DNA of 64,000 nucleotides from Lentimicrobiaceae bacterium (GTDB lineage Bacteria > Bacteroidota > Bacteroidia > Bacteroidales > JAGONC01). The position numbers and the translations under genes were made by a program. Positions 45,942 through 60,707 of this stretch are shown in pieces. The stretch lies in contig JAGONC010000011.1 of assembly GCA_017993235.1 (NCBI GenBank), positions 1 through 64,000 on the forward strand. Reading direction: 5' to 3'. Numbering within the stretch: position 1 is the first letter of the stretch; every line of letters starts with the position of its first letter. The notes beneath the pieces were generated by a model. It had not been told where the DNA came from. It did no database searches and saw only the letters and a program-made list of their open reading frames with translations.

Positions 45942-47950
45942 GCCGGCACCTTATCCTTGGGACCGCAGGCCATGTGGATCATGGCAAAACTGCGCTCATC
46001 AAAGCGCTGACCGGCATTGACTGCGATACCCATAAAGAGGAAAAAGAGCGGGGTATCACCATCAACTTGGGTTTTGCCCACCTCGATCTGCCCTCAGGCG
46101 AAAACGTCGGTATTGTGGATGTTCCCGGGCACAGGGACTTCATCCGGACCATGGTGGCCGGTGCTTACGGCATTGATATGGTGATGCTCGTCATCGCGGC
46201 GGACAGCGGCGTGATGCCCCAGACCGTTGAACATCTCAACATCATACAGTCGCTAGGTATCCGACAGGGTCTGGTAGCGCTGACCAAAACCGACCTTGTT
46301 GACGAAGAAACACTTGATCTTGCCAGGCTGGAGGTGATGGAATTTTTGGAAGGGACTTCCCTTGAACATGCACCCATTGTGCCCGTTTCGGCAGTCACGG
46401 GAAATGGACTGGGTGTGTTGGTGAATGAGATCGTCGCATTGATCCCAAAGATTCCCGATAAGCCTGCGGGTTCAGTTTTCAGGATGTATATCGACCGCCT
46501 TTTCAACATGAAAGGCCAGGGATATGTAGTTACAGGGACGGTGATGAATGGCTCCGTCAAAATAGGTGAGGAGCTTTACCTTTTGCCGGGATTTGATAAA
46601 AAAATGAAGGTCAGGCAGATACAGCGACACGGACAAACGGTGGATTCCGTCTGCGCCGGCGATCGCGCTGCACTGAATCTGTCAGGCATCAATGCTGAGG
46701 ACTTCGAACGGGGAGTGGTGCTTTCCAGTCAGCGCCTGCCCTCTGCCAACATGACCGATGCCTCGCTGGTGCTCTTCGGGGAGGCAGAGAAAATGGGCAC
46801 CTGGTCGCAAGTGATCTTCCTTACCGGAACACTGAAATGCAATGCACGGATTCACCTGCTCGATAAAGACCAGCTGATGCCTGGAGGATCGGCTCTGGTC
46901 CAGATCCATCTTGACAAACCCGCTATGCTTATGAACGGGGACCACTATGTCATACGGAACTCCTCCAACGATACCACCATCGGCGGGGGGGTGATTCTGG
47001 ATATCAGTCCCCTGCATCATAAGAAACGGACAGCGAAGCTGGTTGATTACCTGAATGATCTCAGGGAGGCGGAAAGCGGGAGGCGGGAGGCAGGAGGCGG
47101 GAAGCAGGAGGCAGGAAGCAGGAGGCAGCAGGGATTGGGATGGTTGAAAATTGAAATGAGGAAGGAGGCGGGTCCGGTTTTACCGGAAACACTTGAGGCT
47201 AAACTAAATTTATCACCCGGTGATGTCCTGAAGTATATAAACGAGGGATTGAGTCCTGAAATCCGGCTCTATAATCCCGGAGGAAGGAGCATCCTGATCA
47301 TGAACTCCCTGGATGAGGGCATCCGGCAGAAGATCCTGTCTGTTCTTCGACAATGGCATGAAGCCAATCCATTGCTGGAATCCGGGCTGGATTCCAGAGG
47401 CCTTGCTGGCAAGCTGGGGTTTCAATCTCCGGAGCAGAAACTTTACCTGGAAGCACTGCTTGATACACTACGTGAAGAAGGGAAGATAAGGCAAAACGAA
47501 GCCACATGGCTGCTGGGAGATTTTCAGGTAACCATTGATAAAAGGATGCAGGAATCACTTGACTGGCTTGATCAAACCACAGAACAATACGGCGTTCAGA
47601 AGTCAGTGGCCACGGAGATGGAATCACTGGTCGCATCAGCCCAGGCCAGGAGTATCAGTAAGCAGAAGCTGATGATGATGCTGGTGTATCTTGCGAAAAA
47701 AGGGATACTGTATTTCTATGATGATGATTATCTTCACCGCACTGTGGTTGACCATTGCCGCAACCTTTTACTGGCTGATCTGAAGCACAAGGAAGCCGGC
47801 ATCAACGAAAAGGAATTCCGCCTGCTTATCGATGGCACAAAAAGGATCGTCCAGGTGCTCATCGGGATATTCACAGAAGAAGGCTCGATTACGAAACAAT
47901 CGTTCTACCTGAGAATCACGGAGAAGGGGAAAAAAATTTTAAAACTTTAG
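45938..47950 (+). CDS. selB: Selenocysteine-specific elongation factor
   Basis: Delivers Sec-tRNA-Sec to UGA codons at SECIS hairpins. GTPase motifs: [15 protein letters not shown] (G1, residues 8-22), [19 protein letters not shown] and TKTDLV. Beta-barrel domains follow (about 175-370), then C-terminal winged helices (to 670) that bind the SECIS. Residues about 376-396 are encoded by nine tandem heptamers (Ala/Gly/Arg/Gln-rich), between the barrel and the winged-helix part. It is longer than typical SelB (about 610-640). The stop overlaps kdpE (minus strand) by 4 bases. Confidence 0.95.
47064..47126 (+). repeat. In-frame heptamer array within selB, nine units
   Basis: GGGAGGC, GGAAAGC, GGGAGGC, GGGAGGC, AGGAGGC, GGGAAGC, AGGAGGC, AGGAAGC, AGGAGGC run without gaps: 63 bases, a multiple of 21, so the reading frame is kept. 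It encodes a low-complexity Glu/Ala/Gly/Arg/Gln linker. The same unit, circularly permuted, occurs after wtpA (19228-19241). Confidence 0.9.
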
Positions 47951-48636
47951 TCATCTCCCATAAACCTGTATCCAATGACCGGTTCGGTGACGATAATGAC
48001 CGGATGATTGGGATTGTCTTCGATCTTTTTACGCAGCTGGGCGATAAAAACCCGAAGGTACTGTGACTGTTCAATATAACCCGGTCCCCAGATCTTCATC
48101 AAGATGAACTGGTGGGTGAGGACCCTGTTTTCATTTTTGGCCAGAAGTGCCAGAAGGGAATATTCAGTGGATGTTAACCTGATAAGGGTGTCCCCTTTTC
48201 TTACTATCCGGTTCACAAGATCAATGGAAAGATCATGACTTTGAATGACCGACTTAGTTTCTGATCTATTATAATTCCGGAGCACTGTCCGGATCCTGGC
48301 CAGTAATTCTCCGGTACGGAAGGGCTTGACCAGGTAGTCATTGGCACCATTATCCAATGCCCTGATGATCTCATCCTCGCTATCACGGACCGATAGAATA
48401 ATGATCGGCGAAATATACCATTCCCTCAGTTTGACAAGGATGTTCTGACCATCCTCATCGGGCAGGCCCAGGTCCAGAAGGATAAGGTCAGGTGGATGCA
48501 TGGCAGCCTGCATCAACCCATCCCTGCCAGTACTGGCTTCGATGACCTTGTATTCTGCTGAACGTAGGGTTATTTCCAGTAACCTGATGATCTGCGCTTC
48601 ATCATCAATGATCAGTATGGTATGCCGTTCATTCAT
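47947..48636 (-). CDS. kdpE: KdpE-like response regulator (OmpR/PhoB family)
   Basis: 229 residues: receiver domain (phospho-acceptor Asp55 in LILLDLGLPDEDG; KPF switch in YLVKPFRTGEL) and an OmpR-type winged helix (LTSTEYSLLALLAKN, then SQYLRVFIAQLRKKIE). The C-terminal VTEPVIGYRFMG and the kinase partner point to KdpE, but no kdpFABC genes are present. The gene overlaps its kinase by 8 bases. OmpR-family regulators bind 11-base-period direct repeats; such sites exist upstream of two genes nearby. Confidence 0.85.
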   Translation of the reverse strand: MNERHTILIIDDEAQIIRLLEITLRSAEYKVIEASTGRDGLMQAAMHPPDLILLDLGLPDEDGQNILVKLREWYISPIIILSVRDSEDEIIRALDNGANDYLVKPFRTGELLARIRTVLRNYNRSETKSVIQSHDLSIDLVNRIVRKGDTLIRLTSTEYSLLALLAKNENRVLTHQFILMKIWGPGYIEQSQYLRVFIAQLRKKIEDNPNHPVIIVTEPVIGYRFMGDD

Positions 48637-49711
48637 CTTCTGGTTCTATCCGGACTGTCTCGACAGGTATTCGAATGGTAAAAAGGGCACCGTGAGGATC
48701 GTGGTTAGCGACCGTTATGGTACCGTTATGAGCCTGTATAAATCCCCTACTTATGGACAAACCCAGTCCCAGTCCACTTTTCCCGGAATCTCCGCGACGT
48801 GAGAATTTATCGAAGACCATATCCAGACTCTGCTGATCAAATCCGGGACCGTCATCGGATAGCTGAAGAACCAGGTCATTCCCTTCCATTACTGTATTGA
48901 TGTTGACCGAGGTCCCGGGTGGTGTATGTACCGTGATATTCTGCAATATATTGTAGAGGGCCTGTTCCATTAAACCAAAATCCATTTTTACCATCGGAAA
49001 ATTCTCCGGCACCCGAATAGAAACGGGAAACTTCTCAATTTCCGGCCTTAATCTATTCACCACAGTATGGATCAACTCATTGACATCACACCAATCCAGC
49101 TTTGGCTGAAGCATCCCTGACTCAAGGCGTGACATATTCAACAGATTGCTCACCAATCGGTTAAGCCGGTTGGAGGCGAGAAGTATTTCATTCTGCAGAA
49201 AAATCCTGTCCGTGTCCTGAATTTCTTTATGCCGGCCAATCAGGGTTTCAGCCGCACCAATAATCGTAGTAAGAGGCGTTCGCAGCTCATGGGAAATGGA
49301 ATTGAACAGGGCATTGTACAACTTCAGAGCCTGTAGCCTCTGTTCTCTTTGTCTGACCTGCTTTTCAAAATGCCTGATCCGGGATGTGAGAATTCCGTTC
49401 AACAGGGCAATTGTTAGAAACATGGCAAGCATCAGCACATCTTCAGTCGTATTGACATGAAAGGTGTAATGGGGTGGAATGAAGAAAAAATCCCATATAA
49501 TGGCACTGAGTATAGCTGATATCAAGACCGGATACAGACTGAATACGATGGCCAGCAGCGAGACATTGAACAGCAGTACCAGTGCCACTGCACGATACCC
49601 AATCACATCTGAAATGAAAAAACAAATTAATGCAACGACAAGGGTGACAGAAATGCTTATCAGGTATTGAGTGGGATGTTTCTTACCGGTGTAGTCACTT
49701 AATTTGATCAT
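48629..49711 (-). CDS. KdpD-type histidine kinase lacking N-terminal KdpD and Usp domains
   Basis: 360 residues, against about 890 for full KdpD. It begins with the DUF4118 membrane part: four helices within residues 17-110 and the typical loop IWDFFFIPPHYTF. Kinase domain: His141 in SISHELRTPLTT, N box MEQALYNILQNI, G boxes LSDDGPGFD and GLGLGLSISRGF. The cytoplasmic N-terminal KdpD (ATP-binding) and universal-stress domains that sense c-di-AMP or K+ are absent; a separate usp gene lies at 52331-53161. Pairs with the KdpE-like regulator. Confidence 0.88.
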   Translation of the reverse strand: MIKLSDYTGKKHPTQYLISISVTLVVALICFFISDVIGYRAVALVLLFNVSLLAIVFSLYPVLISAILSAIIWDFFFIPPHYTFHVNTTEDVLMLAMFLTIALLNGILTSRIRHFEKQVRQREQRLQALKLYNALFNSISHELRTPLTTIIGAAETLIGRHKEIQDTDRIFLQNEILLASNRLNRLVSNLLNMSRLESGMLQPKLDWCDVNELIHTVVNRLRPEIEKFPVSIRVPENFPMVKMDFGLMEQALYNILQNITVHTPPGTSVNINTVMEGNDLVLQLSDDGPGFDQQSLDMVFDKFSRRGDSGKSGLGLGLSISRGFIQAHNGTITVANHDPHGALFTIRIPVETVRIEPEDE

Positions 49712-50031: not shown

Positions 50032-52080
50032 TTAGAAATTCTTTGAAGCCAGATGGATGATTTCTGACTGGTCCAGAGGGATCGGCAACACAATGGTAGT
50101 GATTCCATGAAGGAACAGTTTCCTCTGGATGGCAAAAATGGTGTAATTATGAAGCAGTCGTACAAACCGGGGATTGCCATGAAAGATGAACTGGCCTCCA
50201 AAAAATACAGCATCCGGATATTTGGCAATGATCTCAGGAATAAGATGATCCACCTCCTCCACAACATCGGTACCCAGACTGTAGAAGCAATCGGACCTTA
50301 AACCGACCTGCTCGGCAATATATTTATATTTCTGAAGGTCTGTCACAATATTTTCCCTGAGCCGCTCATAATGATTATGGTCGGTAAAACACTGTGAATC
50401 CACAATACCAATGCTCATAAAGGTGATGTTAGCGTAAGTAGAATCAAACAAATCGATAAGCCGGTAGAATGAATATAATCCCAGACCATTGTATCCGTTG
50501 ACCAGGAATACGGCAGTATGCACTAGTTTGTCACCCCTGTATTTTGTAGAGGAGGGGATTGCTATTTTGGTTTTCATTTTAGTGATGATATCAGGCAGTA
50601 CCTTCTTTATGATCCTCTGCACGATGATGATCTCCTTTCTGGTTTTATTATAATGTCGCTTGATGGTAACTGCAAATAAGGAAAGCATTCCTGTTATTAA
50701 GAGCGTTATCCATCCTCCTTCGCCAAATTTGAGAATCACCACGGTAATCAGGATGAAGCTGGTCAGGACAAGGCCGATACCATTCACCAGCATTTTCCTC
50801 AACCATTTTTTTTCGTGCTTTCTGACCTGGATCCAGTGCCTGACCATTCCGAATTGTGAAAGGGTGAACGTGATAAAAACGTTAATGCTGTAAAGGATGA
50901 CCAGCCATGCGACAGATCCCCTGGAAACGAACAATAGCACAAAAGCTGCTCCACCCATGATCAGGATTCCATTCTGAGATACAAGCCGGTCGCTCAGGTG
51001 CATGAATCTTTTCGGTATCCAGTGGTCGGTGGCCATGTTGGCCATCACCCTGGGTCCATCAAGGAAACCTGTCTGGGCGGCAACGAACAGCAATGCTGCT
51101 TCGGATATCAGTGTAAGAAAAACAAATGATTTCCCAAGAAAGGGATTCCACCCGGAGGAAGCCTGCTGAACCAGTACAGCATTCAATGTTTTACCATGCT
51201 CAAATCGGAGATCAAAAAGGTAATAGGAAATGATGAGTCCGAATGCTGCAATGGCCAGAGATACCGACATCAGCATCATGGTTTTCTGCGCGGTGTGGGT
51301 TTTCGGATCCCGCAGGTTGGGAATGCCGTTACTGACGGCCTCAATGCCCGTGTACGTTCCTGCTCCCATACTGTAAGCCCTCAGGATCAGGAAAAGGGTT
51401 CCTAGTATCCCCAGTTCAGAAACCGTCCGGGATGTCTCAGCTGCAGTCTTTTCGATGATGACCGGTGCCTGAGACATATGCGTCATTAAACTGTAGCCGA
51501 TCAGCAGGATGTGGGTGAGTACAAACAAGATAAAAACGGGAGTCAGTGTCTGTACCGATTCTTTTACTCCCCTAAGGTTAAGAGTGATCAATACCAAAAG
51601 AATAAAAAATGCAAATGGAAGTTTAAAAATGTACCATGTTCCCGGCAAAAAGCTGAATATGGCATCGGAGCCGCTGGACACTGACAGGGTGATGGTCAGG
51701 ACATAATCGATCAGCAATGCACTGCCGGAGATCATTCCGGCAGCCGGGGAGATCAGCTTGCTGGCCACAATGTATCCGCCTCCGCCATGCGGGAAAAGCC
51801 GGATGATCTGCCTGTAACTCGTGCTGATCACAAAAATGGTGAGGACCGTAAGTGTGGCCGCAAAGATGGAAAGGTTCTGGTGGCCTGCCAGGTTTCGCAT
51901 GATCTCTTCAGGACCGTAACAGGATGAAGACAGCGGATCCGATCCCAATCCCACCCATGCAAAAAAAGTGATCAGTGAAATATGGCGAAATATTGACTTA
52001 TCCGATATATCACGCGCTTTACCGATCAGGGTGTTCTTGATTTTTGCCGATATGGCAGCCGTGTCGTTCATATGGGTCAT
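50032..52080 (-). CDS. APC-superfamily transporter, KimA/K+-uptake type
   Basis: 682 residues: about twelve membrane helices (to about 450) then a cytoplasmic domain of about 220. The N-terminal block FFAWVGLGSDPLSSSCYGPEE and LFPHGGGGYIVASKLIS match the KimA/KUP-like branch of the APC superfamily, where the first is part of the substrate path. The C-terminal domain (KLVHTAVFLVNGYNGLG, DAVFFGGQFIFHG) looks like a USP-type regulatory domain. Adjacent KdpDE-like genes suggest potassium; an amino-acid substrate is the alternative. The start ATG is at 52080 (or 52071). Confidence 0.82.
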   Translation of the reverse strand: MTHMNDTAAISAKIKNTLIGKARDISDKSIFRHISLITFFAWVGLGSDPLSSSCYGPEEIMRNLAGHQNLSIFAATLTVLTIFVISTSYRQIIRLFPHGGGGYIVASKLISPAAGMISGSALLIDYVLTITLSVSSGSDAIFSFLPGTWYIFKLPFAFFILLVLITLNLRGVKESVQTLTPVFILFVLTHILLIGYSLMTHMSQAPVIIEKTAAETSRTVSELGILGTLFLILRAYSMGAGTYTGIEAVSNGIPNLRDPKTHTAQKTMMLMSVSLAIAAFGLIISYYLFDLRFEHGKTLNAVLVQQASSGWNPFLGKSFVFLTLISEAALLFVAAQTGFLDGPRVMANMATDHWIPKRFMHLSDRLVSQNGILIMGGAAFVLLFVSRGSVAWLVILYSINVFITFTLSQFGMVRHWIQVRKHEKKWLRKMLVNGIGLVLTSFILITVVILKFGEGGWITLLITGMLSLFAVTIKRHYNKTRKEIIIVQRIIKKVLPDIITKMKTKIAIPSSTKYRGDKLVHTAVFLVNGYNGLGLYSFYRLIDLFDSTYANITFMSIGIVDSQCFTDHNHYERLRENIVTDLQKYKYIAEQVGLRSDCFYSLGTDVVEEVDHLIPEIIAKYPDAVFFGGQFIFHGNPRFVRLLHNYTIFAIQRKLFLHGITTIVLPIPLDQSEIIHLASKNF

Positions 52081-52091
52081 GATACCGGCAG

Positions 52092-52158
52092 CAAATGTAA
52101 TCCAGGTATTATAAAGGAAAAGTCAAACTATCCGGCGATCGTGTAAAGATTTCATAAA
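52092..52158 (-). promoter_or_regulatory. Composite promoter with OmpR-type direct repeat, APC transporter
   Basis: On the minus strand: TTTATG-AAATC-TTTACA (52142-52158), then a TTTGACTTTT block (52118-52127), and 24 bases after its TTTG a -7 box TACATTTG (52092-52099). The same parts at the same spacing occur upstream of the second tonB (60499-60565). The 11-base period fits a site for an OmpR/PhoB-type regulator. The rest of this 250-base gap shows nothing clear. Confidence 0.6.
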
Positions 52159-52330
52159 AGAATTCCCATGATTTCTCACTGATAAGAGGAAAAATTACCA
52201 AGAATAGTAATGACTAAACTGCCGAGAGGGTCTTTGGACGTGGCATAACAAATTTGTCCTACCACTTCCGGTTCCGGCAAGTTCTCAACTAAGGGATGGC
52301 ATTCCTTATTCGGTCTTTACTCTGGCCTGG

Positions 52331-53161
52331 TCAACGTTCCAGGATCGGGTATTTGAACTTCCGCGGATTGATACACATTACCGGAATTTGGGGAGCATTG
52401 AAGATCATCTCCTCATCGTAGGTTCCTAAAAAGAATTTTTTAAAGTTACTGTCAGGGTTTGTCATTATAAGGATCAAGTCGGCATCCAGTGAGGTCGCAT
52501 AATCGATGACAGATTTTGAAAAGCCACTACTTCTTACAGCGATGTTATAGGTGTGTTTGACATCATTTATCTTGAAATAATCATTCATCCTTTTAGCGGC
52601 TTCTACAACATTACAATCCACGGTATCTGTTTGAAAAATGTGTATGGTGGCCCCATACTGTTGCGCGATGAACGCAGCCCATTTCGTCTTTTCCATGGGA
52701 CCCGATTCACTGGTGACAGGCATTACAATGTTTATAAAGCCTTTACGTGAGCTGCGGTTATGGACGACAATCACAGGTATGGGAGACCTAGTGATCACTT
52801 TGAGCGCAAAGCTGCCTGTAAGTTTTTGCATACCCACTTTCCCGTGCGTGCCAAGAAACATCAGGGTGGCATCGATCTCTGTGGCTACAGCACCGATTGT
52901 CTTAAAAATACTTCCTTCCACTACTCTTGTCTCCACCGGAACCTTATATTTCAGGTGTATCTCATTGGCTTTTTTATCAAGCATATCACCTATGGCGCTA
53001 TCTCCTAAATAGGATTTGTCCAGATAGGCACGCGTGTCCTTATTGATCACATGAAGCAGGCATATGCCGTATTTGAGGATCTGTGCCGTTACAGAGGCTT
53101 GCTTTATCGCATTGTTACAGACCTCGGAGAAATCTGTTGGGACCAGAATGATATTTTTCAT
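52331..53161 (-). CDS. Tandem universal stress protein
   Basis: Cytoplasmic protein of two Usp domains, 276 residues from ATG 53161. Domain 1 starts NIILVPTDFSEVCNNAI with the ATP-binding loop LGTHGKVGMQKLTGSFALKV. Domain 2 ends with LDADLILIMTNPDSN and VMCINPRK. The first domain has the Gly-rich G-x2-G-x9-G loop of ATP-binding Usp proteins; the second lacks an obvious one. Located next to the K+-type transporter and the KdpD-type kinase that lacks its own Usp domain, which suggests a related signalling role. Confidence 0.9.
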   Translation of the reverse strand: MKNIILVPTDFSEVCNNAIKQASVTAQILKYGICLLHVINKDTRAYLDKSYLGDSAIGDMLDKKANEIHLKYKVPVETRVVEGSIFKTIGAVATEIDATLMFLGTHGKVGMQKLTGSFALKVITRSPIPVIVVHNRSSRKGFINIVMPVTSESGPMEKTKWAAFIAQQYGATIHIFQTDTVDCNVVEAAKRMNDYFKINDVKHTYNIAVRSSGFSKSVIDYATSLDADLILIMTNPDSNFKKFFLGTYDEEMIFNAPQIPVMCINPRKFKYPILER

Positions 53162-53297
53162 TGGACTGTTTTTTAAGTTTTTCAAGGGATTGACTGACCA
53201 TAGTATACTTTTCTCTGATCAATCCATTCATTCAATCTTGACTTATTTATATGACGGAATACCATTTGATAATAACGGTTGCTAACCCGTTGTCATA

Positions 53298-54989
53298 CTA
53301 TTTCTCCTTGAGAACGGCTTCCAGATAGTCCATGGTAGCGATCACCTCTGGATCATCCGGATCTGCAATGAGAATGTATTGTAAATAACCCAGTGCATTT
53401 CTGAAAGAAGCTTTTGCTGCATCCTGGTTTGTGTGTAAGGCTTTTTCGCCTGCAGTAAAATAATAATATGACAGGTATTTGTAACATTCCTGAAGGTATT
53501 TCTGGTTCTTGACCGTATCACCCTCCCTGATCAGAACCATTGCTTTTTCATAATCAGAAACTGCCAGACCCTGCATTTGATCAGGATCCAGCTGGGATCG
53601 TACCCTTCCCCGAAGCAGGTAACCGGTAAAAGCATTGGGACTTACCTCCGTCACGCGTGTAAATGAAGTGTCCGCTTTTTGCAGGAGCATGACTTTTTCA
53701 ATTGAATCGGTGACCTGAACTGTATCCAGAGCCCACATATAAAATTCCTTACCGATATTGTAATACGTATTTCGTTCATTATCAACCCCTTCCTGCAAAC
53801 CAGTCATGTACCAGTCAATAGCCTCCGAATGATCTTTTAACTGGGTCAGCTTCTGTGTAATTTCCGGTATCAGTTCGGTTTTTGAATGATCCATCTGAAA
53901 AGCGAGGATTAGATTCCGCACTCCAACAGAATCCTGGCCATTCTTAATCAGGAGCCTTCCCTTATAGACATAATCCGATGAAATGAGTTTATCAGGAGGT
54001 TCCAATTTATATAACATTTCAATGCTTTCCAGTCCCCTGCCATACTGGCCAAGTTCATAGCTCATGTACGCTTTTAACCGGTGAAGAACAGGCGAATCTG
54101 GACTGGCCTTCAGGAGGGTATCAACAATGGTGTTGGCCTTTTCATATTCGTCAGAAAAAAATAATATGTACGCATACTGTTCCTGGACATCGGCACAATA
54201 GTCCGCCAAGGAAAGGTATTTTTCATAATATCTTTTCGCTTCGTAGTATTTGCCGAAGTCATAGTTCAATTCACCATAGTATCTGTAGACTGCTATCTGG
54301 TTGGAATCAAGCCTGATGGCAATATTAAAAGCGTTGGATGCTTCAAGATAGTTTTTCGCTTTTGTAAAGAGCTTCCCCAGTTTAATATAGGCCGGAATGC
54401 AACTCTTATTGTAAAAAATGGCTCTTTGATATTCATTGACAGCTTCTCCAAGGGACAAGTCGAGATACTTCATATCTCCCTTTAGCAAATAGTAATCCGG
54501 ATTCTTGTCGTCGAGGGATTCCAGGATGGCAAGGTACTTTTGGGCTGTGGTGAAATCCTTGATTTTTTCCGAAAGAGCAATCCTGACCACTTCCGATAAA
54601 AAGTTCAGGTCATTTTTAGATAACTTCCGCCCCTTTTCAAAATACTCCAGTGCCTGAGTATTCAAACCTTTGTAGTAACTGATCCTGCCAAGGCCCGCAT
54701 AATTCAACGGTTCAAGTGGATTCCTTTCCATACCAGCATTGAAAGCACGTTCCGATGAGTCTTGATGCATCAATTTATCATAAACATCACCGAGATAAAA
54801 GTATGCTTTTGCACTATTGGGATCTTTTAGGATGGCCCTGACAAAATACGATTTAGCGGTTTGGTTTTGCTCTTCATGCAGATACCAGATTCCCCGGGAC
54901 AATTCCTGGGAAAATAAGGCAGATGATCCGGTCAGGAAAAGAACGACCGTAAGACAAAATAAATATCTTAATTGATTTGTCATTTTCAT
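53298..54989 (-). CDS. Exported TPR-repeat protein of the exbBD-tonB operon
   Basis: 563 residues from ATG 54989. Signal peptide LFCLTVVLFLTGSSALFSQ. Then about 12 tetratricopeptide repeats, for example AKAYFYLGDVYDKLMHQDSS, PLNYAGLGRISYYKGLNTQA, CIPAYIKLGKLFTKAKNYLE. It is the last gene in the order exbB, exbD, exbD, tonB, small membrane protein, PstS-like, TPR, found repeatedly in Bacteroidota. The TPRs likely make it a periplasmic scaffold. No enzymatic motif. Nearest gene is 14 bases away. Confidence 0.88.
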   Translation of the reverse strand: MKMTNQLRYLFCLTVVLFLTGSSALFSQELSRGIWYLHEEQNQTAKSYFVRAILKDPNSAKAYFYLGDVYDKLMHQDSSERAFNAGMERNPLEPLNYAGLGRISYYKGLNTQALEYFEKGRKLSKNDLNFLSEVVRIALSEKIKDFTTAQKYLAILESLDDKNPDYYLLKGDMKYLDLSLGEAVNEYQRAIFYNKSCIPAYIKLGKLFTKAKNYLEASNAFNIAIRLDSNQIAVYRYYGELNYDFGKYYEAKRYYEKYLSLADYCADVQEQYAYILFFSDEYEKANTIVDTLLKASPDSPVLHRLKAYMSYELGQYGRGLESIEMLYKLEPPDKLISSDYVYKGRLLIKNGQDSVGVRNLILAFQMDHSKTELIPEITQKLTQLKDHSEAIDWYMTGLQEGVDNERNTYYNIGKEFYMWALDTVQVTDSIEKVMLLQKADTSFTRVTEVSPNAFTGYLLRGRVRSQLDPDQMQGLAVSDYEKAMVLIREGDTVKNQKYLQECYKYLSYYYFTAGEKALHTNQDAAKASFRNALGYLQYILIADPDDPEVIATMDYLEAVLKEK

Positions 54990-55023
54990 TTGATTATTAA
55001 GGCAGAACATGATTTGATTGTTT

Positions 55024-55968
55024 TCATAAATGATCCTTCACCCTGACGATCCTGACGGGAGCCTGCGCAGGCAGGATCCCGGCTTTCAGGATGATGCGCT
55101 GACCTTTGTCGCTTGCTAAAAACGCCATAAAGCCAGTCGCCAGACCGTTTCTTGGTTCGGTTGAAATAGCATAAATATCCCTTGTCAGGGGGTAGGATCC
55201 ATCAGAAATATAGGCCTGAAATGGCTGGTAACTGTTTTCCCATGTAGCCTTTTCTTCCCTGGATAAAGCCAGAACGTTAATTTTCTTTAAAAACGATAAC
55301 TGGGTGGTGTCATCCATATCACTGATCCAACTGACACCAATCAATCCCAGGGCATTTTCGTGTTTTGCGACATAATCCACCACATCCAGATTCTGTTCCA
55401 GTGCATACAGGTGTTTCGAGAAATCTTTTCCACTACAGATAGAGTCATGGATGAAACGGACGGTACTGGATTGTTGATTATCGAAGATCACCTCAATGGA
55501 ACCTGACCGATTGGCAGGGTTCACTTGACTCCATTGACTGATCTCGCCTGTCATAATCCGTTGAAAATCATGCATGGCGAGCAGGTTATCCGGATTATCC
55601 GGATGTATAACAAGGGCAACTGCGTCGGTGGCAATCTTAAGTTCCCTGGGAAATAAATCCTTATGTCTGAAAAAGTCCTTTTCCTCTTTTTTAAGCAGCC
55701 TTGAAACAACAACCAGCCGGACACTATCCCCGAGCAACAACTGAACAGCCATTTGTTCAGGCAGATATCTCGATTGAATCTCCGCATAATGGTAAAGCCC
55801 ATGAAAAACCATTAATTCGGCTTCGAGGATAGGCCGGAAGGATTCATCAACTCCGATTGTAATTCTACCCGTGGTTGGAGTATCAGCATAAGGATCCCTG
55901 TTAATACCCTTGCACCCTGTCAGCAGGGTTATTATGAAAATCATCAGGATACTATTTACTTTTTTCAT
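55024..55968 (-). CDS. PstS-like phosphate-binding lipoprotein
   Basis: Lipobox in LMIFIITLLTGCKG, so a lipid-anchored periplasmic binding protein of 314 residues. Family features: ITIGVDESFRPILEAELMVF, IATDAVALVIHPDNPDN, MTGEISQWSQVNP and RNGLATGFMAFLASDKGQRI (typical of PstS-type proteins). In the energy-transduction operon rather than with pstCAB, so it may sense phosphate for outer-membrane transport instead of feeding an ABC transporter; no pst permease is in the window. It overlaps the small membrane protein gene by 17 bases. Confidence 0.82.
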   Translation of the reverse strand: MKKVNSILMIFIITLLTGCKGINRDPYADTPTTGRITIGVDESFRPILEAELMVFHGLYHYAEIQSRYLPEQMAVQLLLGDSVRLVVVSRLLKKEEKDFFRHKDLFPRELKIATDAVALVIHPDNPDNLLAMHDFQRIMTGEISQWSQVNPANRSGSIEVIFDNQQSSTVRFIHDSICSGKDFSKHLYALEQNLDVVDYVAKHENALGLIGVSWISDMDDTTQLSFLKKINVLALSREEKATWENSYQPFQAYISDGSYPLTRDIYAISTEPRNGLATGFMAFLASDKGQRIILKAGILPAQAPVRIVRVKDHL

Positions 55969-56155
55969 TTTTAAGATAGGTTAGATTCCTATACAAACGG
56001 AAAACTCCATACAAAATGAACAGGATACTGAATATGATCCGAATCGCAGGCTCCAGCGAGCTTTTAAACCAGTCGGAGACCCAAAGGAATATTCCGGCAC
56101 CGATATAGACTGGAGCCATGACAAATCCCAAAATGATAAGAAATCTGGCTGACAT
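55952..56155 (-). CDS. Small two-helix membrane protein
   Basis: 67 residues: two membrane helices (FLIILGFVMAPVYIGAGIFLW, then AIRIIFSILFILYGVFRLY) and a basic tail (LKNEKSK). Not recognised as a named family. It lies between tonB and the PstS-like gene in the operon, overlapping the latter by 17 bases. Such small proteins recur at this position in Bacteroidota exbBD-tonB operons, which suggests a conserved subunit. Confidence 0.65.
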   Translation of the reverse strand: MSARFLIILGFVMAPVYIGAGIFLWVSDWFKSSLEPAIRIIFSILFILYGVFRLYRNLTYLKNEKSK

Positions 56156-56179
56156 AATGTGCTTGTTTGAGGTTCCTCA

Positions 56180-57000
56180 TTATATCAACTGAAACTTAAT
56201 GGGCATGTTGAACCTCACGGGGACCGGTCTGCCATTTTGTTTTCCAGGATTCCAGCGAGGCATTTTGGATATGACCCGGACTGCTTCCTCATCGCATCCA
56301 GCCCCTATTCCCCTTAACACCTTAATATCTGATATGTTCCCGTTTTTATCCACAATAAAGGTAACATATACAGTTCCCTCCACATCACTCTCCTTGGCCA
56401 GTTGGGGATATGTAACGTTTTTCATCAAATACTCGCGTAAAGCTGCTTCACCTCCGGGGAAGTCCGGCATTTGTTCAACAAACGTATAGGGTTCCTCTGT
56501 TTCTTCCACGATTTGCTGATCTTCCACGGGCATAGTCTCTGGCATAACTGCTTCAGGAGCATCCGTCCCTTTATCATAATTAATGGTTCCCACCGCAGCT
56601 TTGCTTTGTGTCACTTCCTCCTGGGTTTTAGGTTCTTCTTCATCAGCTACCTCTTCATCGGGTTTAATGACCGGAGCGGTAAATTTTATGACGTTTTTCA
56701 GCAGTGGGGGGGGGGCGGTAACTCTGCGATGATCTCATCTACTTTTTCTGCAGGTTTGTCAAGTTTAATATCTGTCAGAACCCTGACTGAAACATCCCTC
56801 TCTTTTCGTTCCGGTGTTATTCGTTTAATGATGACCGGAGCAGTGGAACCCGCAGTAAAAACAATAATGGCAATAATCAGGGAAATCAGATGCCGTTTAG
56901 ATGCAGAAGTACGCATGAGATAAGCACCATAATCCCGGTTTCTGTTTTCGAAGACGATCCGGCACCATTCTTTAGAAAAAATATTGACTTTAGAGGACAT
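56180..57000 (-). CDS. tonB: TonB-family protein, frameshifted at a C10 tract
   Basis: Energy transducer linking ExbBD to outer-membrane receptors. The first part (from 57000) has SKVNIFSKEWCRIVFENRN, a membrane helix (HLISLIIAIIVFTAGSTAPV) and a proline-rich stretch, then runs out of frame at the C10 tract (56706-56715) and stops. In another frame the text continues KNVIKFTAPVIKPDEEVADE and into the C-terminal TonB domain (FPGGEAALREYLMKN, GTVYVTFIVDKNGNISDI, MPRWNPGKQNGRPVPVRF). Changing the tract by one base (11 C, or 8 C) restores one ORF. It is either a sequencing error, phase variation or real inactivation. Confidence 0.85.
56706..56715 (-). repeat. C10 homopolymer at the tonB frameshift
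   Basis: Ten consecutive C on the minus strand (G on the plus) in the proline codons of tonB. Homopolymers of this length are prone to slippage in replication and to error in sequencing. The preceding codons read GAG TTA CCG, and the downstream frame resumes as CCA CTG CTG AAA AAC. Confidence 0.9.
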
Positions 57001-57033
57001 TTTCTGTAGAATTTATAATGATTTATAATCACC

Positions 57034-57660
57034 TCAGCCTGATATGTGGCTTAAGAGTTCAAGATCGTAGTCGGTTATGTCAACGATGGCATAACGTCCA
57101 ATGTTGCAAATCGCCATTTCATCCAGAATATCGATCAGATTCTTATATGAGGCAGCGTCGGTAGCTTTAATCAGCACAATAGGAGATGACTTGTCTGCAA
57201 TGATCTCACTCCTCTTTTTATTGAAATCATCGTCTGACATCCTGACGGCATCCTTTTTGTCTTTCAGCTCCAGAACCTTGACCATCACGTCATAATTCCT
57301 CTTGATCAAATACTCCCGGATGCCTTTGGCGGAGAAATCCGTCGCTTCCATTTTGGGATCCACATCATTTTCCCTGGTACCTTCATAATAAAACACCTTA
57401 TTATTGGCTCCAAGGATGATCGTGATTGCCCTTGAAGCCTTGACTTTGGTCTGCTCTTCCTCTGCTACCTTTTCCTTGCTCGGCATCGCAATTTCCATGG
57501 TCTGGGGTTTGATCAGGGTTGTCGTCAGCATAAAAAAGGTTATCAAAAGAAATCCAAGGTCCACCATAGGGGTAAAATCAATCCGCGTGGAAACTTTTTT
57601 GGGGGTCGTTCGCTTTTGCTTTTGACCACTCCCGGGGCTATCTTGTTGTATCTCAGCCAT
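57034..57660 (-). CDS. exbD: ExbD/TolR-family biopolymer transport protein, second copy
   Basis: 208 residues: one N-terminal membrane helix with the conserved Asp (RIDFTPMVDLGFLLITFFML, Asp near residue 33), a proton-path residue in ExbD, then a periplasmic domain (MEIAMPSKEKVAEEE, SPIVLIKATDAASYKNLIDIL, ending in YDLELLSHISG). It has a longer periplasmic insertion than E. coli ExbD (141 residues). Adjacent to the other ExbD (4 bases), as in Bacteroidota operons with two ExbD proteins, and to tonB. Confidence 0.92.
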   Translation of the reverse strand: MAEIQQDSPGSGQKQKRTTPKKVSTRIDFTPMVDLGFLLITFFMLTTTLIKPQTMEIAMPSKEKVAEEEQTKVKASRAITIILGANNKVFYYEGTRENDVDPKMEATDFSAKGIREYLIKRNYDVMVKVLELKDKKDAVRMSDDDFNKKRSEIIADKSSPIVLIKATDAASYKNLIDILDEMAICNIGRYAIVDITDYDLELLSHISG

Positions 57661-57664
57661 ACGA

Positions 57665-58279
57665 TTATAGGATTATTTTTTCTGGATTTTGTTCAAGACT
57701 CGTAATGAGGTTGTATCGGTTCTCATTCAGATCCTGCAATGTATTCATCACATTCCGGATCATGGGATACGTAGTGGTCTGATCTGCCTTAATGGCTATC
57801 CTTGCCTGTGGTTTAACCAGTCTGGCCACTTTGACCCAACTCTTCAGCTGATTATTCGTGGAATCTGCCGGGATACCAAGGAGGTTCTCCTTCAAATCCC
57901 TGTCGCCAGGGCTTAGTGCAAGGTAGGATTTCATCTGTTCAATAGGGATGCCAAAGCGGTTGACAAGGCTGAACTTGGTGATCTCCTCCTGGGTAAAAGG
58001 AATAGAATAGATCTCCCCCATCTTTTTCAACATCTCCTGCCGCTCGCTCTGGCCATCCATTCCGATGAAAACTTTTCCGTTTTCATCAACAAGGATCATA
58101 AGAACATCGCGCTCCGGAATTTTTATTTCCGAAATGGAGGATGGGGTGTTGACCATGATCGGTTCAGGCTGTGTGAAGTTGGACGTCAACATAAAAAATG
58201 TCAGTAACAAAAAGGCGACATCACACATAGCTGTCATGTCAATGGCAGTGCTTTTATGCGGAACTGTTACTTTTGGCAT
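57665..58279 (-). CDS. exbD: ExbD/TolR-family biopolymer transport protein, first copy
   Basis: 204 residues: N-terminal membrane helix with the proton-path Asp (STAIDMTAMCDVAFLLLTFF), followed by a periplasmic domain with PEPIMVNTPSSISEI and VDENGKVFIGMDGQ, ending in the ExbD-like AIKADQTTTYPMIRNVMNTL. It precedes the second exbD and follows exbB by 12 bases. Together the two ExbD copies and ExbB form the inner-membrane motor driven by proton motive force. Confidence 0.92.
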   Translation of the reverse strand: MPKVTVPHKSTAIDMTAMCDVAFLLLTFFMLTSNFTQPEPIMVNTPSSISEIKIPERDVLMILVDENGKVFIGMDGQSERQEMLKKMGEIYSIPFTQEEITKFSLVNRFGIPIEQMKSYLALSPGDRDLKENLLGIPADSTNNQLKSWVKVARLVKPQARIAIKADQTTTYPMIRNVMNTLQDLNENRYNLITSLEQNPEKIIL

Positions 58280-58291
58280 GTTATTCAGTTT

Positions 58292-59098
58292 TTAATGATT
58301 CTGCGCATAGGTCTGTACAATGCTGAATCCTGCCTCGTCTATGCTATGAAGCAACTTATCGATCCTGGTTGTATAGACATTATAAAAGATGACCGCAAGG
58401 GCCGCAGTAGCAATACCAAAAGCAGTATTAATCAACGCCTCGGAAATCCCGGTTGCCAAAGCCACCGAATCAGGGGCACCTGCATGAGCCAGAGCGGCAA
58501 ATGCCCGGATCATGCCCAGGACAGTCCCCAGTAGACCCATCAGGGTTGCAATAGAGGAAATGGTGGCAAGGATCACCAGATTCTGCTGCAAACCAGGTAA
58601 TTCCAGACTGGTTGCTTCCTCCACTTCTTTCTGCACAGCAAGCATCTGTTGTTCCTTGGTCATCCCTTTTTCCTTCTCAATCTCCTGATATTTAGCGATA
58701 GCAGAATAAATGACATTGGCGACTGAACCCTTTTGCCTGTCGCACAATTTTTTTGCATTATCCAACTGGTCCCTCGAAAGCAGATGCTTGATGTTTTGTA
58801 CGAATTTCAACACATTACCTTTGCCTGATGCTTTCCTGATCGCAAAGTACCGTTCAATGGAAAAAGTAATAACGGTAAGAAGAAGACACATTAAGATGGG
58901 GACAATAATACCCCCCTTATAGATCGTTCCCAGGTAATTCCCTGGAATGGGTGAGTTAGCAGGATCATTACCCTGGAAATTGGTTGGTTCACCCATCACT
59001 AATTTAAAAATGATGATCGAAACAACCAGTGCAACAGGAATGACTGATGCAGAAAATACATTTTTCAGATTGTTCATTAAATCTTTAATCTTGTTCAT
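58292..59098 (-). CDS. exbB: ExbB/MotA/TolQ-family proton channel
   Basis: 268 residues with three main membrane helices (VPILMCLLLTVITF, LVILATISSIATLMGLLGTVLGM, GISEALINTAFGIATAALAVIF) and a long N-terminal extension. The MotA/ExbB signature is in the 170-235 region (SIATLMGLLGTVLGMIRAF and ALATGISEALINTAFGI). First gene of the operon on the minus strand. The 178-base gap before the next gene on the right holds no clear promoter box. Confidence 0.93.
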   Translation of the reverse strand: MNKIKDLMNNLKNVFSASVIPVALVVSIIIFKLVMGEPTNFQGNDPANSPIPGNYLGTIYKGGIIVPILMCLLLTVITFSIERYFAIRKASGKGNVLKFVQNIKHLLSRDQLDNAKKLCDRQKGSVANVIYSAIAKYQEIEKEKGMTKEQQMLAVQKEVEEATSLELPGLQQNLVILATISSIATLMGLLGTVLGMIRAFAALAHAGAPDSVALATGISEALINTAFGIATAALAVIFYNVYTTRIDKLLHSIDEAGFSIVQTYAQNH

Positions 59099-59276
59099 GG
59101 TAATTAAGAATTAACGGTTCATGCATTTGATTGATTTTGGGCCAGGATTACTCTCTGGATTTATACAGAAATAACCATAATGGAAACCTTGGCATAGCCA
59201 GAATCCTATTCCATATCATCTGATATGGAATCATAAATTCGCTACACCACGATAAATTCAGGAAGATGTGTGGGAA

Positions 59277-59681
59277 CTAGATTCGTATTACCACTAGATT
59301 ATTCAGAACAAACCTCTCTGTACAGAAGAGATTGATCACGTCAAGAAAATTATAAGAAAGTTGTTCCTGAGAGATTATAAAGGGCGAATAAGATGGAGCA
59401 TGGATAGATTTTATCAGGATGAATTTGATCGATTTTTTGGTTAAAAGCGAAGCAATAGTTAAGTAATTATTAATATCCGTTTGATTGCTTTCCTTAATAC
59501 CATGTACAGATCTGTCATCATTTAGTCGGGCGAAATTGAGCTCATTGCACTTATTAAGCTGATAATTAGAAACGAAGTGCGCGATATTTCTGGTATTTGA
59601 AAGAATGAAATTATATTGCAAGACATTTAGGAGGGCTAACAGGCAAGCCAATACTATGATACCTGTCCTTTTCATTTTCAT
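59277..59681 (-). CDS. Hypothetical protein with N-terminal membrane segment
   Basis: 134 residues from ATG 59681 (ATG 59675 also possible), AT-richer than neighbours. An N-terminal hydrophobic segment (IIVLACLLALLNVLQYNFIL) could be a signal anchor; the remainder has no recognised motif. It may be a truncated gene or a false ORF, because no family similarity is evident and codon use looks looser. Between exbB and the second tonB on the same strand. Confidence 0.35.
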   Translation of the reverse strand: MKMKRTGIIVLACLLALLNVLQYNFILSNTRNIAHFVSNYQLNKCNELNFARLNDDRSVHGIKESNQTDINNYLTIASLLTKKSIKFILIKSIHAPSYSPFIISQEQLSYNFLDVINLFCTERFVLNNLVVIRI

Positions 59682-59784
59682 AACAATTGGTTGCAAAAAT
59701 AATTCAAAATAGACCTATAATATAATTTTTTCATGATTTCTTTCATAATGACATTTCGACACATATATGAGTATTTCGTTCTCG

Positions 59785-60477
59785 TTAAAGGGCAAACCTG
59801 ATTGGCATATTGATCAGCACACGGACAGGTTTCCCGCGTTGTTTACCCGGATTCCAGGTGGGCATTTTCTTCACTACCCGGATCGCTTCTTCATCACATC
59901 CGCCTCCAATTCCCTTCAGGACCTTTACACCACTGATGTATCCATTAGATTCCACAACAAATATTATGTAAACAGTTCCCTGAATATTATTTTTCCTGGC
60001 CTCTGGAGGATACTGGATATTTTTCTGGAGGTATAGCATCCTGGCCGCATCTCCACCAGGAAAAGAAGGAGATTCTTCGACGACCATAAAGACTTCGTCT
60101 TCATTAATTCCTTCTTCCGCAACGCCGGTCCCCATTTCAACACCGGATCCTCCATTTTCATCCATTGGTATATTCTCGTCGATTTCAGCATTTACCCTGA
60201 CATCATCATCCACAATATCCCTATCCCCGACCCTCTGGAGAATACTGGTCTGCTCCGGTAATGAGGGTAGAGAAGGTTGTTCCTTGTGTCCAGTTTGAAT
60301 GACCACTTCATCTATTATTCCAATATTTTCTCTGGAAAGGAACACGATTTCTTTTCGTTCATGCTGTTTCCATTCAAGAGCCATCAAAGTCAATGCAAGT
60401 GCGATAATCAGACCAGTCTGAATCAAAATTCCCCGCTTACCTTCCAGATCTGCTTTAGGACTTTTATTGACAACCAT
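59785..60477 (-). CDS. tonB: TonB-family protein, second copy
   Basis: 230 residues. The N-terminus (VNKSPKADLEGKRGILIQTG, then a membrane helix ALALTLMALEW) is the typical Bacteroidota form. A negatively charged periplasmic linker follows (DDDVRVNAEIDENIPMDENG). The C-terminal TonB domain is intact: FPGGDAARMLYLQKN, GTVYIIFVVESNGYISGVKV, CDEEAIRVVKKMPTWNPGKQ. It is not part of the exbBD operon and is under the shared composite promoter at 60499-60565. It can substitute for the frameshifted copy. Confidence 0.93.
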   Translation of the reverse strand: MVVNKSPKADLEGKRGILIQTGLIIALALTLMALEWKQHERKEIVFLSRENIGIIDEVVIQTGHKEQPSLPSLPEQTSILQRVGDRDIVDDDVRVNAEIDENIPMDENGGSGVEMGTGVAEEGINEDEVFMVVEESPSFPGGDAARMLYLQKNIQYPPEARKNNIQGTVYIIFVVESNGYISGVKVLKGIGGGCDEEAIRVVKKMPTWNPGKQRGKPVRVLINMPIRFAL

Positions 60478-60498
60478 TTTAAATGCTTTTTAGCTCAT

Positions 60499-60565
60499 CA
60501 AAGATACTTTAAAGAGAATAAATAAAAAGTCAAACTTTCTGGTGATTGTGTAAAGATTTTGTAAA
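60499..60565 (-). promoter_or_regulatory. Composite promoter with OmpR-type direct repeat, second tonB
   Basis: On the minus strand: TTTACA-AAATC-TTTACA (60549-60565), a TTTGACTTTT block (60525-60534), 24 bases after its TTTG the -7 box TATCTTTG (60499-60506), 22 bases before the start codon. It shares all parts and spacings with 52092-52158. Confidence 0.65.
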
Positions 60566-60635
60566 GAATCTTTTCGATCGCTGTTTTAACTCAGAACGAA
60601 AGGTAATGAACAATAGTATGTTTTTATTGTTTATT

Positions 60636-60707
60636 GGTTGCAGGTTACAGGTTGCAGGTTGTAAGTTAACCTGTAACCTGTAACTTGGAACTTGCGACCT
60701 GCAACCC
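60636..60707. repeat. Inverted heptamer arrays, AACCTGY family
   Basis: Left arm on the minus strand: GGTTGCA, GGTTACA, GGTTGCA, GGTTGTA. Right arm on the plus strand: AACCTGT, AACCTGT, AACTTGG, AACTTGC, GACCTGC, AACCC. The arms meet at AGTTAAC, giving a long imperfect hairpin directly after the stop of the GNAT fusion gene (60710). The unit is the same as at 2131-2186, 58 kb away. It could serve as the gene's terminator. Confidence 0.88.

Follow-up and report, generated by a model that had tools for sequence, protein, structure and literature searches.

Why should a gene for a putative potassium importer and a gene for a TonB protein be preceded by the same promoter-like sequence? The question is raised by a stretch of 64,000 nucleotides (the window) from a Lentimicrobiaceae bacterium (assembly GCA_017993235.1, contig JAGONC010000011.1). 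Two sites on its minus strand, site A (52158-52092) upstream of a gene for an "APC transporter" and site B (60565-60499) upstream of the second tonB gene (tonB2), share one composite arrangement. We consider it highly probable that both are sigma-A-type promoters activated by the response regulator KdpE, A driving the genes kimA-kdpD'-kdpE and B being a duplicate in front of tonB2.

Site A reads TTTATG-AAATC-TTTACA-CGATCGCCGGATA-GTTTGACTTTT-CCTTTATAATACCTGGAT-TACATTTG and site B reads TTTACA-AAATC-TTTACA-CAATCACCAGAAA-GTTTGACTTTT-TATTTATTCTCTTTAAAG-TATCTTTG; common to both are TTTAyr-AAATC-TTTAca, then TTTGACTTTT, then a TAnnTTTG box. The arrangement described in an earlier, sequence-only reading of this DNA is present at exactly these two places, the identical AAATC spacer included, and the distances given there are confirmed at both, namely 24 bases from TTTG to TAnnTTTG and an offset of 17 bases from CAAA to GTGTAAAG. 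From the first hexamer to TAnnTTTG, the distance is 59 bases in A and B alike. Sigma-A promoters of Bacteroidota have TAnnTTTG at −7 and TTTG near −33 with variable spacing (PMC7366714). The boxes TACATTTG (A) and TATCTTTG (B), both at +59, have the −7 form, whereas there is no clear −33 TTTG at the canonical spacing: the nearest TTTG, 24 bases 5' of the −7 box, overlaps a KdpE-like half-site, and such half-sites fill the stretch.

In an ungapped alignment of 16 promoters, all from other genera, the conserved columns are 0-5, 11-16, about 32-36 and 43-48, plus TTTG at 63-66; the +32 and +43 blocks reach 3.4-5.3 bits, above all 500 within-promoter shuffles (maximum 3.0). Four 6-bp half-sites are found at 0, 11, 32 and 43, and their spacing (11/21/11) is always near whole helical turns. 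We read TTTGACTTTT as the third of these half-sites, not as a clear −33 box; the stretch may have a dual role, as half-site and as −33 element, since the sigma-A promoters of this phylum carry TTTG near −33 at variable spacing. The parts of the two predicted promoters are as follows, where R1 is a sequence-only model trained on 12 promoters of other genera, the own genus being excluded.

52142..52158, minus strand: site A, putative distal KdpE box TTTATG-AAATC-TTTACA, half-sites 0 and +11 (model R1)
52110..52127, minus strand: site A, proximal half-site pair TTTGAC/TTGACT (+31/+32) and TTTATA (+43) (promoter columns from other genera)
52092..52099, minus strand: site A, −7 box TACATTTG, +59 from the first hexamer (composite pattern)
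60549..60565, minus strand: site B, putative distal KdpE box TTTACA-AAATC-TTTACA (model R1)
60517..60534, minus strand: site B, proximal half-site pair TTTGAC/TTGACT and TTTATT (conserved-column alignment)
60499..60506, minus strand: site B, −7 box TATCTTTG, +59 from the first hexamer (composite pattern)

The pattern TTTAYRAAATCTTTAYR has two matches in the window and none in 100 dinucleotide shuffles, and the full composite pattern likewise has two matches in the window and none in 100 shuffles. The earlier reading had proposed a genome scan for further sites, and had taken many copies in non-promoter DNA as the sign of a repeat element. Such copies were not seen: the perfect box occurs exactly twice in the genome (3.34 Mb), at A and B, and R1 returns site B (60498-60569, 36.0 bits, E=1.9e-8) and site A (52091-52158, 35.2 bits, E=3.5e-8), its next best match having 13.2 bits (E 0.26). 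The other near-matches in this genome are an apparent kinase-coding sequence (contig C74) and matches without evident promoter (C71 and C3). The loose pattern TTTAYR-N5-TTTAYR does no better than its reversed control in seven genomes, which is why the AAATC spacer and the −7 geometry are needed in the pattern. A sigma-70 promoter/terminator scan gave nothing informative.

Which regulator would read these sites? The genes downstream of site A suggest a candidate.

50032..52080, minus strand: KimA-type K+ importer (predicted; the "APC transporter"), 682 aa (phmmer to KimA 6s3k, E=1.1e-70; Pfam AA_permease_2)
48629..49711, minus strand: short KdpD-like sensor kinase, DUF4118-HisKA-HATPase, without the N-terminal KdpD/Usp part
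47947..48636, minus strand: KdpE orthologue, response regulator (E. coli KdpE 4kny, E=9e-58)

The sole significant PDB relative of the 682-aa APC-superfamily protein is KimA, the K+/H+ symporter of Bacillus subtilis (6s3k), to which it is homologous over residues 36-494, and we predict that it is a K+ importer of this type. KimA, the short kinase and KdpE are encoded in an apparent operon, and KdpA was not found in this genome. The kimA gene of B. subtilis is controlled by a c-di-AMP riboswitch; here, a KdpE-type promoter precedes the homologue, and the neighbouring genes encode a two-component pair of KdpD/KdpE type. The best full-length NCBIfam match of the regulator is KdpE (227 bits, for a cut-off of 325), and it is 58-65% identical to the KdpE of full kdpABCDE operons.

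The KdpE of E. coli binds TTTATA-N5-TTTACA, and its residues R193, R200 and T215 are important for binding (PMC3264566); the equivalent residues are kept in the KdpE of the window (YLR...LRKK...VTE, mapped by eye). Sites A and B resemble the box of the E. coli kdpFABC promoter in being two AT-rich 6-bp direct repeats of the TTTATA/TTTACA type with an AT-rich 5 bp between them, and the two regulators (4kny for E. coli) are OmpR-family KdpE proteins with conserved key DNA-contact residues. The differences are the fixed AAATC spacer, the second, weaker pair at +32/+43, the fixed 59 bases to a Bacteroidota −7 box, and the targets, which instead of Kdp are a K+ uptake gene, kimA, for A, and tonB2, which is not a K+ gene, for B. 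We predict that this is the form which the KdpE box takes in Bacteroidota. The literature searched yielded neither a KdpE motif or regulon nor a described K+ regulon for the phylum, which is not proof of absence.

The distribution of the perfect box was followed in 395 genomes, with reading of the loci; K+ gene families outside the window were called by BLAST against reference proteins, supplemented by a small number of Pfam checks, and the comparison genomes are mostly assemblies, the named relatives being Bacteroidales/Bacteroidetes metagenome-assembled genomes. The box is found upstream of kdpFABC in seven genomes (with near-matches in two more), upstream of kdpDE-kup in three (and weakly in a fourth), upstream of trk/ktr genes in three, and at kimA in four (G001, G002, G058 and G094). 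Most of these K+-gene promoters in other genera have TTTG at +59. The kimA genes of the two congeners G001 and G002 (contig C114) have the box with the 59-base offset, and so does G058, of another family, where a KimA 60% identical to ours is followed by kinase and regulator; in G094, kdpDE is divergent from kimA and the perfect box lies between them, oriented toward kdpDE. In the KimA homologues of other families, mostly without adjacent KdpDE, no box was found on the upstream strand scanned.

The box goes with the kinase: among 394 genomes, it is present in 12/28 of those with a KdpD-like kinase vs 22/366 of those without (Fisher p=2.8e-7). Where a perfect box is not near a K+ gene, TAnnTTTG at +58/59 is mostly missing, the exception being contig C2 of G205. 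In 149 relatives, R1 gave strong matches (E up to 1.2e-5), and those beyond the genus were inspected at 20 loci. A gene for KdpA, Kup, TrkH, KimA or KdpDE is the direct neighbour at 14 of them; one has kdpE nearby, one lies ahead of a porin-kdp operon and one at a contig end; the remaining three are at a barrel-like protein, at a secreted protein with a porin match close by, and at a site convergent with kup. The locus with kdpE nearby (L304, contig C8 of G457) has its strong KdpE-type site ahead of an extracytoplasmic function (ECF) sigma factor. We put at about even the chance that one four-half-site KdpE promoter of fixed geometry serves Kdp, Kup, Trk/Ktr and KimA across Bacteroidota and that, here, tonB belongs to the regulon as well.

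How did such a promoter come to stand before tonB2? The genes that follow site B, and the one that precedes site A, are these.

59785..60477, minus strand: tonB2, directly downstream of site B (Pfam TonB_C)
53298..59098, minus strand: exbB-exbD-exbD-tonB1-PstS-like-TPR cluster, downstream of tonB2
55024-55968: PstS-like gene, within the tonB-exb cluster
52331..53185, minus strand: Usp-domain protein, 284 aa, one Usp match, upstream of site A (Pfam)
52111..52163, minus strand: duplicated segment, copy A (53 bp, 83% identical to copy B by self-BLAST)
60518..60569, minus strand: duplicated segment, copy B (self-BLAST)

The 119 bp that lead up to the kimA box of G001 match the upstream flank of copy B (83%), and everything downstream there matches A (85%). 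The same split is seen in G002, with 90% to the upstream flank of B and 95.6% to the downstream side of A. As far as about 60634, the upstream flank of copy B is orthologous to the DNA upstream of kimA in both congeners, whose kimA promoter is contiguous and single-copy. In our genome, a segment of 8.4 kb (52163-60517, tonB-exb-pstS-like-usp) separates the two copies; its GC content is 42.3%, vs 48.4% in the rest of the window, and no match to the PstS cluster at comparable strength was found in G001 or G002. By this comparison, site B is a paralogous, duplicated copy of the kimA promoter. The simplest reading is that the segment was gained in this lineage, possibly from outside; a repeat-driven misassembly is unlikely, because the longest identical runs of the two copies are short. 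Descent from a duplicated KimA promoter stretch, which explains part of the likeness of A and B, is absent from the sequence-only reading; the link that the latter drew between ion uptake and TonB therefore stands as a prediction for this species and not as a conserved pairing.

Some neighbouring features are worth recording. In both congeners (L098 2307-4034; L291), kimA has a divergent neighbour, a phenylalanine-hydroxylase-like gene, which our genome lacks at the equivalent place. A short inverted repeat of AACCTGTAACCTG type lies at 60637-60691, upstream of site B, with related copies at 2137-2183, near the window start. In G205, contig C2 (L249 5543-5800) carries, with no K+ gene near, a 98% copy of 258 bp that span the kdpDE-kup promoter and the first codons of the kinase; we read it as an independent promoter duplication.

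Is site B a working promoter? It could be a non-functional relic of the duplication, like A by descent only, with KdpE having no role at tonB2. We consider this rather unlikely, though it is the most serious alternative. The 53-bp direct repeat that flanks the 8.4-kb segment, the single contiguous copy of the congeners and the comparable duplicated kdp-type promoter of G205, which has a truncated kinase, are all in keeping with a relic. However, at the 34 conserved columns, B fits the consensus from outside as well as A does (28 and 29 matches, respectively), and R1 scores it above A. A and B agree at 30/34 conserved columns and at only 17/30 of the others (for A and G001, the figures are 30 and 26), and TATCTTTG is kept at +59 of B although it lies outside the well-conserved 53 bp. 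Drift outside the conserved columns suggests, as far as one sequence can, selection on the site, and site B probably serves tonB as a functional KdpE promoter, because its conserved positions were kept while the rest drifted. Several points weigh against the KdpE reading, at B or in general: B could be a relic preserved only by its youth; tonB2 is not a K+ gene; no other genome was seen with the box before tonB; the KdpE match lies under the NCBIfam cut-off; and by matrix the kdp operons of four genomes and of others have no strong box, which means that the motif is not shared by the whole phylum.

The sequence-only reading attributed both promoters to one regulator, KdpE-like or PhoB-like. 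The first half of this proposal is supported by the KdpE-like protein encoded next door, the half-sites of E. coli type and the linkage to kdpDE and K+ transporter genes, whereas regulation of both promoters by PhoB is very improbable. It is true that the pair can alternatively be parsed as CTTTACA-AAAT-CTTTACA, 7-bp repeats around a 4-bp spacer, a geometry like that of the Pho box, which also has direct repeats with an 11-bp period and an OmpR-family regulator, that the tonB cluster contains a PstS-like gene, and that in E. coli PhoR and KdpE are reported to engage in cross-talk (PMC5458449). But the genome's own pst/phoU operon has no box (nothing above 7.1 of 24.9 bits in the 14 kb around pstS-phoU, contig C73), the PstS-like clusters of 11 other genomes have no strong one, and across the phylum the box tracks kdp, kup, trk and kimA genes. 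The PstS-like protein brings to mind the coupling of K+ and phosphate in E. coli (PMC5458449); PhoB itself is unsupported. Last, a dispersed repeat element or a chance match, to which the 83% identity over 53 bp might point, can be dismissed with near certainty, given two copies only in the genome, none in the shuffles, and a geometry that recurs in distant genera with otherwise unrelated sequence.

We propose the following mechanism for the KdpE-activated promoters. KdpE, as the response regulator of K+ limitation (encoded at 47947-48636), would bind in its phosphorylated form to the strong distal direct repeat (half-sites 0/+11) and, from the same side of the helix, to the weaker proximal pair (+32/+43). 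This pair lies at the position expected of a −33 element, and KdpE would therefore bring RNA polymerase to the −7 box at +59. From site A, the transcript would cover kimA-kdpD'-kdpE, giving K+ import and autoregulation; from site B, it would cover tonB2 and perhaps the whole exb cluster. Since B is a copy of the kimA promoter before tonB2, TonB-dependent energising is predicted to rise under K+ limitation in this species. Elsewhere, some KdpE-type sites precede or adjoin barrel/porin genes, which would fit an adjustment of the outer membrane when K+ is scarce.

The extent of the second transcript touches on two details of the cluster. An open reading frame of 139 aa without Pfam match (59277-59696, minus strand) lies between tonB2 and exbB and is preceded by a TATTTTTG sequence, so exbB may have its own promoter. 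The tonB1 gene (56180-57000, minus strand) is interrupted at a stretch of about 10 C and continues in another frame, which may reflect a frameshift, a phase-variable tract or an error of the assembly; if the split is real, tonB2, under site B, would be the sole intact TonB of the cluster. As to the sensor, the kinase has no Usp-containing N-terminal part and a separate Usp-domain protein (52331-53185, minus strand) is encoded nearby; for KdpD of E. coli and S. aureus, the Usp domain is described as a regulatory input (PMC2714519, PMC4686210).

If our reading is correct, tonB, and possibly the whole TonB-ExbBD cluster with its PstS-like protein, joined the K+-limitation regulon via a duplicated KdpE promoter, and outer-membrane active transport would be raised together with K+ import. 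The analysis provides a testable KdpE promoter architecture for Bacteroidota, with four half-sites and 59 fixed bases to the −7 box, in which the regulator-promoter pair would persist while the transporter changes. With single-copy congeners and two copies in this species, the locus would be a readable case of regulon growth through promoter duplication.

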